Below are positions 912 through 64,000 of a DNA stretch of 64,000 nucleotides, piece after piece (positions within the stretch are counted from its first letter, which is position 1; each line of letters begins with the position of its first letter). The notes under the pieces are model-generated. The model worked only from the letters and a program-made list of their open reading frames with translations, had not been told where the DNA came from and made no database searches. This DNA is from Ferrimonas lipolytica (GTDB lineage: Bacteria > Pseudomonadota > Gammaproteobacteria > Enterobacterales > Shewanellaceae), in contig NZ_CP051180.1 of NCBI RefSeq assembly GCF_012295575.1, forward strand, positions 1,302,001 through 1,366,000, given 5' to 3'. The position numbers were made by a program, and so were the translations under genes.

Positions 912-1190
912 GGCTGTGTCGTAGTTAGCTGTTGAAATTTATCTTAAGCCTTCGGCTTCACCGATTTCGGTGCTTTTAGGGGAGGATGTCGCGGTGGCGA
1001 CGGCATCCCAAGGGGAGCTTCGCCCCCTTTGGAATCCCCCTTGCCTTAGGTCGCAGTCCAAAACGCTTCGCTGAACGGCTCTAATGCGGCAGAAGATCAA
1101 TAGCGGTAGTGCTTTACCCTTGGTATCGCGACTCGCCTAGCCAGTGCTTTAACAGCACTGGAAAGAACAACACTTAATTGGTACACAGCC
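912..1190 (-). mobile_element. MITE-like repeat, copy 1
   Basis: 279 bp with ends GGCTGTGT and ACACAGCC. Inside the ends lie a TAAGTGTTG-type inner repeat, AAGCCTTCGGCTT, and a GGGGGCGAAGCTCCCCC-like hairpin shared with nine other copies. Orientation is reversed relative to the copy at 46420. Flanks are ATAAAAAG on the left and TAAAAAAG on the right, an imperfect target duplication that lies in the T-tract of the yccA terminator. No coding capacity is conserved between copies. Confidence 0.85.
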
Positions 1191-2274: not shown

Positions 2275-2545
2275 AACTGTGTCGTAATTCGCTGTTTAGG
2301 TTTGCCATAGGCACGGCTAGTTAATCTGTTTTAGCTAAGCAAGATGGCGTGGCGACGGTATCCAAAGGGAAGCCTTGCCCCTTTTAAAAGTCCCCCTTTG
2401 CCTTAGGTTGCAGCCCCAAACGCTTCGCTGGACTGCTCCAATGCGGCAGAAGATCAATAGCGATAGTGCTTAACCCCTGTATCAGAACTGTCTAGCCGGT
2501 GCCTTGACCGAATTGATTAGCTAAACACTTAGTCGATACACAGCC
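2275..2545 (-). mobile_element. MITE-like repeat, copy 2 (degraded left end)
   Basis: 271 bp aligned along its length to the other copies in reverse orientation. The left end is altered to AACTGTGTCG while the right end ACACAGCC is intact. No clear target duplication remains, so this looks like an older copy. It occupies most of the gap between tRNA-Ser and the pst promoter. Confidence 0.75.
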
Positions 2546-9428: not shown

Positions 9429-9717
9429 GGCTGTGTAGCAACTAAGTGTTGTTCTTTCCTATGCTGTTAAGCACCGGCTAGGTGAGTGTTGATACAAGGG
9501 CAAAGCACGACCGTCGCCGATCTTTTGCCGCATTGGAGCAGTTCAGCGAAGCGTTCTGGACGGCGATTTAAGGCAAGGGAGATTCCAAAGGGGGCGAAGC
9601 TCCCCCCTAATGCATACAAGCATGTGCCGTCGCCACTGCGACATAACCCCTTAAGAGTACTGCAGCCGGCAGAGCCGAAGGCTTAAGATAAACTTCAACA
9701 GCTAACTACGACGCATT
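9429..9717 (+). mobile_element. MITE-like repeat, copy 3
   Basis: About 289 bp, forward orientation, left end GGCTGTGT intact. The right end reads ACGACGCATT instead of ACGACACAGCC, so the right inverted repeat has decayed. Left flank TTTTTTTA compares with CTTTTTTA at 9718-9725, a likely 8-bp target duplication. It is inserted at the T-tract of the nrfA terminator. A 66-codon reading frame inside is not conserved. Confidence 0.82.
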
Positions 9718-10942: not shown

Positions 10943-11149
10943 AAGGGTCTCAGCTAGCTAGGGGAGTACGATCCATAGGATCAGCGTTATGCACGGATTA
11001 TATCAGAGCACGTCCTGAATACATGTGGGTTAAATGGCCTAGTCGAGTGGTAACCAAGTAAAACCAACAGAGGCAACAATAGTACGACTTTTATATCAAA
11101 CCACGTAAATGGCGCAACGCTGGCTGGCTGGTTGGCTAGTTGAATAATG

Positions 11150-11294
11150 GTAAGGGGGATTCCAAAGGGGGCGGAGCTCCCCCCTAATGCATACAAGAAT
11201 GTGCCGTCGCCACTGCGACATCCTCGCCTAAAGCACCGTAATCGGTGAAGCCGAAGGCTTGAGATAAACTTCAATACTTAACTGTGACACAGCC
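11150..11294 (+). mobile_element. MITE-like repeat, copy 4 (left-truncated)
   Basis: Only the right half of the repeat (145 bp) remains. It begins at the AAGGGGGATTCCAAAGGGGG segment and ends with the intact CTTAACTGTGACACAGCC. It lies six bases past the end of the convergent diguanylate cyclase gene. Confidence 0.8.
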
Positions 11295-12944: not shown

Positions 12945-13199
12945 CGTTTTCGTTCATTGGGTAAAGTAGCTTAATGCTAGCAATAGACTGCGCCAATTAC
13001 TGTTATTAGTTAGTAATTTCGTGAGCGACTGCTGAGTTATTGGCCGTTAGTACTGCAGCACTAATGTCATGCCATTAGCGGAGCTGGCTGCGCCGATGCG
13101 AATTAACCGGTTTGCAGAACCCTGCTGAAATCCTATGAGTTTCTGCTTGAGTTGATGGCCAACTCTGTCACACTTAGCACTAAGTGTTAACAAACGCTT

Positions 13200-13350
13200 C
13201 GAATTTTGGTGCCCAATGGGACTAATAGGGAACGCGGTTAAATTCCGCGGCTGTACTCGCAACTGTGATCAGAGCGGGGTGTCGTTACCACTGGCTTACG
13301 CTGGGAAGGGGCGCCCCTAGACGCTGAAAGCCAGGATACCTGCCTAAATT
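13200..13350 (+). promoter_or_regulatory. Cobalamin (AdoCbl) riboswitch
   Basis: Shows the conserved B12-box architecture: GGGAACGCGGTTAAATTCCG, CGGCTGTACTCGCAACTGTGA, CCACTGG, CTGGGAAGG and the 3' GACGCTGAAAGCCAGGATAC box. It is followed by a CTCAAG/CTTGAG hairpin at 13361-13379 and lies 165 bases before the btuB ATG. It should repress the btu operon when adenosylcobalamin is abundant. Confidence 0.95.
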
Positions 13351-13514
13351 TGCCGATTTGACTCAAGCGGGTTACTTGAGCAGGTGGTTGAATTTTGCTG
13401 TACGCACTGTTGTGCTTAAACAATAAAGACGACGCTATTCTGTTGCTGTCACCATGATGTGATTGCTACCTCAAACCATTTCCCGCGCTTTTAACTCAAT
13501 TAATAGGGAACATC

Positions 13515-26170: not shown

Positions 26171-26634
26171 ATGAAAAAATCGCGATACACAGACAGCTAT
26201 ATCATGGCCATGACATCATTATTTGCTTTGCTTGCCGAGTGTTTTCGCTAAGTGAAATCTTCTATCGATATCAGCCCAAGTTAACCAATGAAAACACTGA
26301 AATTGAATCTTGGCTTATCATGCTAACCGAAGCCGAGAACGATTTGGGCTTTGGCCTCTGCTGTGATTACTTACGCAATGTGAAGGTAAATCAATGGAAC
26401 CACAAACATGTTTACCCCATCTACTGTGAACTGGCACTGAACCTAGGCATTTACCCTAAGGCCAAACTGAAACGTAATGTTCCAGAGCCACTAAAAGAGC
26501 CAGTACGCGCTAACCAATTATGGTCTGTGGGCTGCATACATGACCAACTAGCTAATGGTTGCAGTTACCGCTTGTTTTACATTATTGATGATTTTCGGCG
26601 TGAAGGACTGGCGAGCGAAGCTTGGTTTTAATTG
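26171..26634 (+). pseudogene. Decayed IS3-family transposase remnant
   Basis: The ATG at 26171 opens MKKSRYTDSYIMAM, the typical start of IS3-family (IS407-like) OrfA, then breaks after about 24 codons. In another frame, 26239-26631 encodes 130 residues homologous to the start of OrfB: FYRYQPKLTNENTEIESWL, GLCCDYLRNVKVNQWNHKHVYPIY, then LWSVGCIHDQLANG and IIDDFRREGL, stopping abruptly. Most of OrfA and the OrfB catalytic region are missing. An AAAGTAGAATTTTCTC segment at about 26129-26144 may be part of the left IS end. It is non-functional. MITE copy 5 starts right at its stop codon. Confidence 0.85.
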
Positions 26635-26804
26635 GCTGTGTAGCAACTAAGTGTTCTTCTTCTTCCTAATACAGTTAAAGCACTGGCTAGGCGAGTCGCG
26701 ATACCAAGGGCAAAGCACTACTGCTATTGATCTTCTGCGACCTAAGGCAAAGGGGGGCGAAGCTCCCCCCTTAATGCATATAAGAATGTGCCGTCGCGAC
26801 CGCG
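26634..26804 (+). mobile_element. MITE-like repeat, copy 5 (right-truncated)
   Basis: The left end GGCTGTGT is intact and the repeat can be followed for about 171 bp to GCCGTCGCGACCGCG, then lost. Left flank is TTTTAATT. It is nested in or beside the IS3 remnant, adding to an insertion scar between two tRNA-Ser genes. Confidence 0.78.
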
Positions 26805-26973
26805 CCTATAAAATTGGCGAGATAACTTAGCTGGCTTTTTAACCGGTTAATTTAAGTTGGCAGGCAATAATGGCTAAAGATAAATCAGTTGAACCCAACT
26901 TAGTTTGTCCTTTAGCCAATTGAATCATAAAGCCTTTATTTCCCCGCAGCGCTAGACTACTATGCATTTCGTC

Positions 26974-32593: not shown

Positions 32594-32885
32594 GGCTGTG
32601 TTGTAGTTAGTTGCTGAAGTTTATATCAAACCTTCGGCCGACCGATTGTGGTGTTTGCGAGAGACTATGTCGGGGTGGCGACGGCACATGGTTGTATGCA
32701 TTAGGGGTGAGGTTCGCTCCCCTTTGGAATTCCCCTTACCTTAGGTCGCAGTCCAAAAGGCTTTAATGGACTGCTCCAATGCGGCAGAAGATTAATGGCG
32801 ATTATGCTTTATCGCTGGTATTGGGACGCACCTAGCCAGTGCTTCAACACTATTGGTTGGTACAACACTTAGTTGGAACACAGCC
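32594..32885 (-). mobile_element. MITE-like repeat, copy 6
   Basis: 292 bp, reversed, both ends intact (GGCTGTGT and ACACAGCC). Flanks are AAAAAGTT and AAAAATTG, a poor but AT-rich duplication. It stands 15 bases past the end of the DUF2798-like gene. Confidence 0.85.
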
Positions 32886-46384: not shown

Positions 46385-46416
46385 AAAAAGGGAAGCTCAT
46401 TGAGCTTCCCTTTTTT
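46385..46416 (+). terminator. Terminator of thrS-infC-rpmI-rplT
   Basis: AAGGGAAGCTCA-T-TGAGCTTCCCTTTTTT, 37 bases past rplT. MITE copy 7 inserts in its T-tract. Confidence 0.92.
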
Positions 46417-46419
46417 ATT

Positions 46420-46706
46420 GGCTGTGTACCAATTAGTGTTGTTCTTTCCAATGCTGTTAAAGCACCGCTAGGCGAGTGTTGATACAAGGCGAAAGCACTA
46501 CCGCCGTTGATCTTCTGCCGCATTGGAGTAGTCCAGTGAACCGTTTTGGAATGCGACCTAAGGCAAGGGGGATTCCAAAGAGGCGAATCTCAACCCTAAT
46601 GCATACAAAAATGTGCCGTCACCACCGCGACATAGCCCGTTCAAACGCCACAATCGGCAGAGCCGAAGGCTTGATATAAACCTCAACACTTAACTGTGAC
46701 ACAGCC
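46420..46706 (+). mobile_element. MITE-like repeat, copy 7 (reference copy)
   Basis: 287 bp with both ends intact. GGCTGTGT...TTAGTGTTG pairs with CAACACTTA...ACACAGCC as a terminal inverted repeat of about 23 bp. It is flanked by a perfect 8-bp direct repeat TTTTTATT (46412-46419 and 46707-46714), the clearest sign of transposition. It sits in the T-tract of the rplT terminator. A 67-codon reading frame inside is not kept in other copies. Confidence 0.93.
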
Positions 46707-46723
46707 TTTTTATTCGCTACTGT

Positions 46724-47538: not shown

Positions 47539-47844
47539 GGCTGTGTACCAACTAAGTGTTGTTCTTTCCAATGCTGTTAAAGCACCGACTAGGCGAACTT
47601 TGATACAAGGATAAAGCACTACCGCCGTTGCTCTTCTGCAGCATTGGAGCAGTCCCGCGAAGCGTTTTGGACTGCGACCTAAGTCAAGGAGCGGTCAAAG
47701 GGGGCGAAGCTCCCTCCCCCTATTGCATACAAGAATTGCATACAAGAATGTGCTGTCGCCACCGCGACATTACCCCTTAAGAGTAGTGTAATCGGCACAG
47801 CCGAAGGTTTGATATAAACCTCAACACTTCACTGTGACACAGCC
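47539..47844 (+). mobile_element. MITE-like repeat, copy 8
   Basis: 306 bp, intact ends, flanked by ATAAAAA (47532-47538 and 47845-47851). The longest copy, because AGAATTGCATACA is repeated internally near 47730. The left target duplication overlaps the DUF1853 start codon; the right abuts the terminator of the gene at 47886. Confidence 0.9.
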
Positions 47845-51607: not shown

Positions 51608-51871
51608 GGCTGTGTACCAATTAAGTGTTGTTCTTTCCAATGTTGTTAAAAGGGGAACTACCAAAGCACCGGCTAGGCGAGTGTTGATAAAAAGGGAAGC
51701 ACTACCGCTGATCTTATGCTGCATTGGAGGGGAGTCCAGCGAAGCGTTTTGGACTGCGACCTAATGCATACAAGAATGTGCCGTCGCCACCGCGACATTG
51801 TTCCCTAAAAGCACCGAAGTCGGTGAACCGAAGGCTTAAGATAAACTTCAACAGCTAACTACGACACAGCC
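51608..51871 (+). mobile_element. MITE-like repeat, copy 9
   Basis: 264 bp, both ends intact, internally shortened around the GGGGGCGAAGCTCCCCC segment and with a small insert near 51650. Flanks TTTTTGTT and GTTGCTTG share only GTT, so the duplication has been lost. Positioned in a terminator T-tract. Confidence 0.85.
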
Positions 51872-63854: not shown

Positions 63855-64000
63855 GGTTGTGTACCAATTAAGTGGTTCTCTTTTCAATGCTGTTAAAGCA
63901 AAGGCTAGGCGAGTTTTGATGCAAAGGGTAAAGCACTACCGCCGTTGCTCTTGCGCCGCATTGGAGCAGGTCAGCGAAGCGTTTTGGAGTGCGACCTAAG
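63855..64000 (+). mobile_element. MITE-like repeat, copy 10 (cut by window end)
   Basis: Begins GGTTGTGTACCAATTAAGTGG, with one change from the consensus GGCTGTGT, and continues colinear with other copies to the window edge at the GCGACCTAAG segment. Left flank AATAAAAA is AT-rich like the other target sites. Confidence 0.85.

Follow-up and report, generated by a model that had tools for sequence, protein, structure and literature searches.

Insertion sequences of the IS1595 family are among the closest described systems to the repeat analysed here. As far as the accessible parts of the articles go, members of this family usually generate target duplications of 8 bp (PMC8101967), ISApl4 has AT-rich duplications (PMC12561309), and IS1595 elements are over-represented between codirectional genes (PMC9208149). 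Two MITEs come close by description: MITEAba12 of Acinetobacter, which is linked to ISAba12, is non-coding and combines IS-like ends with AT-rich duplications (PMC6382973, accessible part), and QMITE2 of Coxiella has ends of 23-29 bp, duplications of 7-9 bp, truncated copies and a very stable predicted transcript fold (PMC10969869, a review whose accessible part does not use the term IS1595). The repeat described here resembles these two MITEs in the features named. It is very probably a MITE of the IS1595 kind, which was mobilised in trans, tends to land in terminators, has now probably stopped moving and carries a structured core that was probably constrained when the family was active.

Copies, target duplications and empty sites

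A search profile made from 30 copies of the genome yielded ten matches (weakest E value 4.2e-36) in the window, the stretch of 64,000 nucleotides of Ferrimonas lipolytica that was analysed; all differ by no more than a few bases from the places at which an earlier note, made from the letters alone, had put ten copies (Table 1). The note's description of the repeat also held: the outer ends GGCTGTGT/ACACAGCC and the inner block TAAGTGTTG/CAACACTTA are real, the consensus ends match at 19 of 23 positions of a terminal inverted repeat of about 23 bp, full window copies measure 264-306 bp, and there is no conserved reading frame. The longest stop-free stretches are scattered over all six frames in 87 full copies (the 62 described below plus 25 of 30 loci chosen for their likeness to copy 7), with a median of 75 codons versus 68 in shuffles and a maximum of 101 codons in copies and shuffles alike. 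The left-end pattern has 11 matches in the window, both ends counted, versus 0.19 expected in shuffles. An internal tandem duplication of the short unit TTGCATACAAGAA is found in copy 8 (window 47700-47750) and likewise in copies in L128 and L085, and at L084 8218-8755 three partial MITE copies form a compound tandem array. The window also holds a cobalamin riboswitch at 13190-13361 (Rfam RF00174, 91.7 bits).

Table 1. Coordinates of the MITE copies, their parts and related elements (window positions unless a locus is named).
Feature	Position	Strand	Remark
MITE copy 1	912..1190	-	profile search
MITE copy 2	2277..2545	-	profile search; diverged
MITE copy 3	9429..9714	+	profile search and end comparison; right end decayed
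MITE copy 4	11146..11294	+	profile search; truncated, right half only
MITE copy 5	26634..26806	+	profile search; truncated, left part only
MITE copy 6	32594..32885	-	profile search
MITE copy 7	46420..46706	+	profile search; the copy under study
MITE copy 8	47539..47844	+	profile search; in terminator A/T tract; sister-species site empty
MITE copy 9	51608..51871	+	profile search
MITE copy 10	63855..64000	+	profile search; cut by window end
Intrinsic terminator behind rplT	46390..46419	+	GGGAAGCTCA/TTGAGCTTCCC hairpin and T-tract holding the copy 7 insertion
Target duplication of copy 7, left	46412..46419		TTTTTATT; single TTTTTATT in sister species
Target duplication of copy 7, right	46707..46714		TTTTTATT
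Terminal inverted repeat of copy 7, left	46420..46442	+	one base deleted in copy 7
Terminal inverted repeat of copy 7, right	46684..46706	-
Structured core of copy 7	46506..46641	+	hairpins P1, P2, P4; L001 1590-1725, 125.3 bits
Structured core of copy 8	47627..47778	+	L001 2711-2862, 100.2 bits
Core-less derivatives (second-order MITE)	L128 6946-7050; L111 19489-19593; L105 4184-4288; L098 9976-10079; L087 2297-2401; L081 3178-3282
GGCTGTGT-ended family of the sister species	L150, L152, L154-L156, L158, L159, L162-L167, L169, L170, L172

In a sample of 1.254 Mb, consisting of the window and 60 evenly spaced 20-kb stretches (30% of the genome; one stretch was shortened to 10 kb owing to overlap with the window), the profile search gave 132 hits (+ strand 68, - strand 64), and 68 of the hits are full-length. 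These scale to 435, a figure lowered to an estimate of roughly 350-430 elements genome-wide, since short or broken elements yield two or more hits each. A first genome search for the repeat had returned 324 candidates, and genome-wide counts of the end pattern, with at most two mismatches, are 209 on one strand and 183 on the other, versus 1 and 1 for the reversed control. Among 144 genomes searched, its own included, the repeat was found elsewhere only in a sister species (G010), with 74-82% identity in the best matches, and was absent from 12 other genomes of the genus. The long left-end pattern had no match in a genome contig collection, which may omit records near this genome.

Copy 7 is flanked by a perfect 8-bp duplication of TTTTTATT and copy 8 by ATAAAAA (7 bp), as the earlier note had reported; the latter duplication was probably 8 bp originally and lost one A from its A-run. 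Scoring of the window flanks by eye, which left out copy 3 and the truncated copies, gave a match of 6/8 for copies 1 and 6 and chance-level matches of 4/8 and 3/8 for copies 2 and 9. Among the 132 hits, 62 have both ends together with 25 or more flanking bases, and in these flank identity was maximal at exactly 8 bp (0.80 versus 0.40 with shuffled partners), with 0.60 at 7 bp and 0.50 at 9 bp. Exact 8-bp duplications surround 23 of these 62 full copies, and 36 have duplications matching at 7 or more of 8 positions.

Behind rplT, the sequence reads CTTCCCTTTTTTATT-element-TTTTTATT, and the sister species has CTTCCCTTTTTTATTGCC there, with the same terminator, a single TTTTTATT and no element. 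Within the 150 bases inspected behind rplT, the element is missing from all 13 other genomes of the genus, the sister species included. A second empty site was found at the position matching copy 8, where the sister species carries GGGCATAAAAAAGCCGACC uninterrupted. These two were the readable orthologous sites; the flanks of seven other window copies gave no orthologous site in the examined stretches of the sister species and of G009. The 62 scored copies and the two empty sites support the non-autonomous transposon with 8-bp target duplication that the earlier note had proposed. It had also named two observations that would speak against a transposon, a repeat always present in relatives and a repeat forming part of a longer conserved RNA gene: both readable sites are empty in the sister species, and the duplications bound the repeat, which is therefore not a piece of a longer gene, though the structured module that forms its core also occurs elsewhere. 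As it is short and non-coding and shows inverted terminal repeats, target duplications and empty sites, the repeat family is a MITE.

Landing in terminators and the candidate transposase

Once the flanks were joined, many insertion sites turned out to fall within an intrinsic terminator's T-tract. Next to 42 of the 62 sites there is a hairpin with a folding energy of -9 kcal/mol or lower, versus 25.3% of 1240 controls (p 3e-12), and at -12 kcal/mol 33 of 62 sites compare with 19.7% of control draws; the controls were non-ORF draws matched in A/T content and homogeneity. When 6 of 9 T were required in addition to the hairpin, 34 of 62 sites remained versus 15.2% of 620 controls at -6 and 31 of 62 versus 8.1% of 620 controls at -9. 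Frames of at least 100 codons account for 86.7% of the sample when all six frames are counted, and only three of the 62 sites lie within them with both flanks; this scarcity will partly reflect the loss of harmful insertions. By eye, IS relatives in a genome of the same genus (G008), at L059 and on an Aeromonas plasmid (L210) also adjoin terminators, and no obvious terminator was seen beside L056, L058, L207 or the 1029-bp relic described below. A literature search, with subscription journals mostly outside its coverage, found no earlier report joining IS1595 with terminator targeting.

The earlier note had considered IS256- and IS1595-type transposases and had stated that none matching lies in the window. 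The last point is correct, as IS1595 searches of the genome match none there, and of the two families IS1595 is favoured by ends, relics and an intact relative, while IS256 fails on its different ends and the lack of a match. The only traces of IS1595 transposases in the genome are two dead elements with ends GGCTGTGT...TGTTG, both of which start and finish with GGCTGTGTNNNANTTANNTGTTG. The larger is a decayed 1029-bp element containing stop codons, and its 8-bp flanks TATTAAAA/TATTAAAG match at 7 of 8 positions. Two 87-residue pieces of it are 82% and 59% identical to the transposase of G008, which harbours an intact IS1595 element of 1023 bp (L062; copy number uncertain, as the repeats sit at contig ends) with similar ends and a 315-aa transposase matching NCBIfam NF033547 (IS1595 transposase) with 185 bits. 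The smaller relic (L243 1266-1704, 439 bp) kept both ends and lost the middle of the transposase; its left end agrees with the right end of the MITE at 21/23 positions, counted by eye, and no target duplication is visible around it. In form, this relic is intermediate between IS and MITE.

The MITE ends agree with those of the 1029-bp relic and of the G008 element at 16-19 of 23 positions, and the figure of 16-17 for the left MITE end counts against the assignment. The same or closely similar ends occur in ISAchd1-type, Azotobacter and Aeromonas plasmid elements; of the five plasmid hits read, three, on Pseudomonas, Azotobacter and Aeromonas plasmids, have ends of this kind, and a Marinobacter and an Octadecabacter element showed no such end pair. 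Of 29 loci from other relatives, only L062 carries the end pair with 1 mismatch, followed by L059 (4), L056 (5) and L058 (6), and the rest were worse or gave nothing; judging from these sequences, such ends therefore mark one subgroup of the IS1595 family and not all of it. The length of the MITE duplication also agrees with IS1595, and the genome holds decayed copies of the transposase, none intact. An extinct MITE family would be expected to show this absence, and a MITE need not have an intact transposase beside it; mobilisation is thus deduced from the ends, the duplication length and the target. The interior of the MITE is not derived from IS sequence, and the element is therefore not a simple deletion derivative.

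Duplication lengths of IS256 and ISL3 would fit 8 bp as well, and two identical IS256-family copies are present in the genome, so that one of these transposases might have moved the MITE instead. The IS256-family copies end in GGGTGTTCAT... and GTGTTCAGATT..., are unrelated to the repeat in ends and sequence and have no BLAST match to 30 repeat copies, and PF01610 has 0 matches in the genome, which thus lacks an ISL3 domain. A mover from either family is regarded as highly improbable.

Under the preferred IS1595 reading, a transposase recognising GGCTGTGTNNNANTTANNTGTTG ends would have acted in trans on the 23-bp ends of the MITE, and the element of about 290 bp was inserted with an 8-bp stagger, to which ends, duplications and empty sites attest. 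Among target sites, AT-rich 8-mers were favoured, most strongly those in T-tracts of intrinsic terminators, a preference borne out by the control comparisons. Since the T-tract is duplicated on insertion, the hairpin retains a T-tract; insertion should thus be nearly harmless, and hundreds of elements could accumulate. The hairpin-rich core, which is common to other repeats of the genus, would probably have been constrained during the active phase.

The structured core and its distribution

The core of copy 7 was left out of the covariance model that matched this copy. Columns with variants common to at least four copies number 22 of 72 in P1-P2 and P4 taken together, against 97 of 173 in the rest (Fisher p 0.0004) and 13 of 46 in the two ends; the regions were picked after the alignment was seen, and the columns are not independent. 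The 20-column block poorest in shared variants (181-200) falls between the tested hairpins. Since shared variants come mostly from source lineages, constraint probably acted on the core as long as the element lineages kept jumping.

P2 reads GCAGTCCA/TGGACTGC in this genome and GGTGCCCA/TGGGCACC in the sister species, which corresponds to three compensatory changes. In an alignment of 11 of 26 own cores and 7 from the sister species, with the structure drawn from one of them, double-change cells (23 versus 9.9 in shuffles) and the covariation score (0.220 versus 0.144) were matched by 0 of 500 shuffles each; the numbers of changed pairs (5 versus 4.7) and of pair types (15 versus 15.0) showed no excess, so that two of five measures failed to exceed shuffles. 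G-U outnumbers A-C by 67 to 10 in P2, with 35 of the 67 from one mostly G-U pair and 17 from another; the hint of a + strand RNA is therefore weak. P4 is invariant in the two-species alignment and appears in four other genomes as GTCGC/GCGAC, GCCGC/GCGGC, GTCGG/CCGAC or GCCGG/CCGGC, at 15 distinct sites retrieved by a regular expression in which one of the five pairs is fixed (none in G013). When 45 copies out of the 60 best full ones were folded freely as a consensus, the structure was weak (-14.5 kcal/mol, covariation term -0.57), and three whole copies or strands, inverted ends included, fold strongly (z -5.2 to -6.6).

This folding, the covariation of the core and the core-like repeats in several genomes could also be explained by a host-selected family of structured RNA genes or regulatory repeats that is no transposon at all. 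Exact 8-bp duplications and empty sites argue against such an origin. Rare variants, found in at most two copies, are as frequent in the core (0.0171 per site in P1-P2, 0.0201 in P4) as in the rest (0.0157), with 0.0126 in the left and 0.0198 in the right end, and Rfam gave only sub-threshold matches, none at gathering level, for the repeat, either within the window or at seven related loci. Host selection is therefore considered very unlikely. Since the rare variants are evenly spread, purifying selection is not evident in the resident copies, which decay neutrally. The closest pair among the 87 full copies differs by 4.8%, the mean distance to the consensus is 9.1%, and copy divergence correlates weakly with duplication mismatch (Spearman 0.20, p 0.13). 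With the traces of transposase dead and the closest pair at 4.8%, the MITE family has probably stopped moving.

The covariance model of the core, with 17 candidates scored per genome, matches 7 of 194 genomes: this one, G010, G005, G002, G013 and G003 of the same genus, and G090, which belongs to a different family of the order; the matches in G003, G013 and G090 are weak (E values of 3e-5 to 8e-4 with a roughly calibrated model). Alteromonas indica was matched by the sequence pattern of the core and, weakly, by the model. There, core-like hairpin units of about 90-110 bp are repeated in both orientations over several kb (L193-L195; 14 model matches, E 3e-6 to 1e-3). In G005, a 376-bp element (L192) has other ends, GGCTTATCGCGG...CGAAAACC, with only GGCT in common with the MITE ends, and lies within a perfect 8-bp duplication of ATAAAAAA, adjoining a terminator. 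Three of its 48 matches in G005 span 360 bp or more, and many others end near positions 104-110 and 312-317, which delimits a unit some 210 bp long. With the ends GGCTTATCGCGGAT...AAATATGCGAAAACC, this element (L192 1445-1820) represents a second MITE-like type that carries the same core; the type was also noted at L182 and L187 (G005) and at L179, L184 and L189 (G013), which look similar by eye. The sister species carries the core's 3' part inside GGCTGTGT-ended elements, three of which were fully read (524, 602 and 617 bp). These belong to a repeat family of about 350-620 bp with only the right part of the core in common.

Three of six core-less forms of 104-105 bp have duplications matching at 7 or 8 of 8 positions, and the movement of these forms speaks against a need for the core. 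That the core is a structured-RNA or hairpin-DNA cargo passed between MITEs with different ends, and selected for success in the jumping phase and not for the host, is a tentative proposal with perhaps a minor chance of being right. If it is true, the core would serve the parasite itself as a functional non-coding component, carried by elements that also escape harm via terminators.

Comparison with known elements

IS1595 insertion sequences (L062; ISAchd1-type, CP075839.1) share with the MITE the GG-starting ends GGCT(G/A/C)TGTNNNANTTANNTGTTG, AT-rich duplications of 8 bp and, by eye in three relatives, insertion beside terminators, and decayed family members reside in the same genome; the MITE differs from them in the missing transposase gene and in its interior. 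ERIC and Correia elements also form tens to hundreds of non-coding copies by description, and Photorhabdus luminescens has 711 ERIC copies (as cited in the accessible part of PMC10969869), so that the MITE family is high in number and not the densest known. Intergenic location and density would also suit a REP-, ERIC- or Correia-like repeat of other origin, a reading that we consider exceedingly improbable, because ends, duplication length and target agree with IS1595 elements; the repeat also had no sequence match in phage or plasmid collections. To our knowledge, the ends of ERIC and Correia are unrelated to those of the MITE.

The analysis suggests a testable answer to the question of how a genome comes to hold several hundred transposon copies, namely that the element's own 8-bp duplication restores the landing site. 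With this approach, constraint acting on the mobile lineage can be told apart from selection that acts on resident copies, and the analysis also points to a hairpin module common to MITEs with different ends. MITEAba12 differs from the present family in its 9-bp duplications and its length of 111-114 bp, and the accessible part of its report describes no terminator preference or common core (PMC6382973); QMITE2, compared by description and not by sequence, differs in its 78 copies (PMC10969869, accessible part). Among such elements, the combination of a terminator preference with a shared structured core is a variant worth following.
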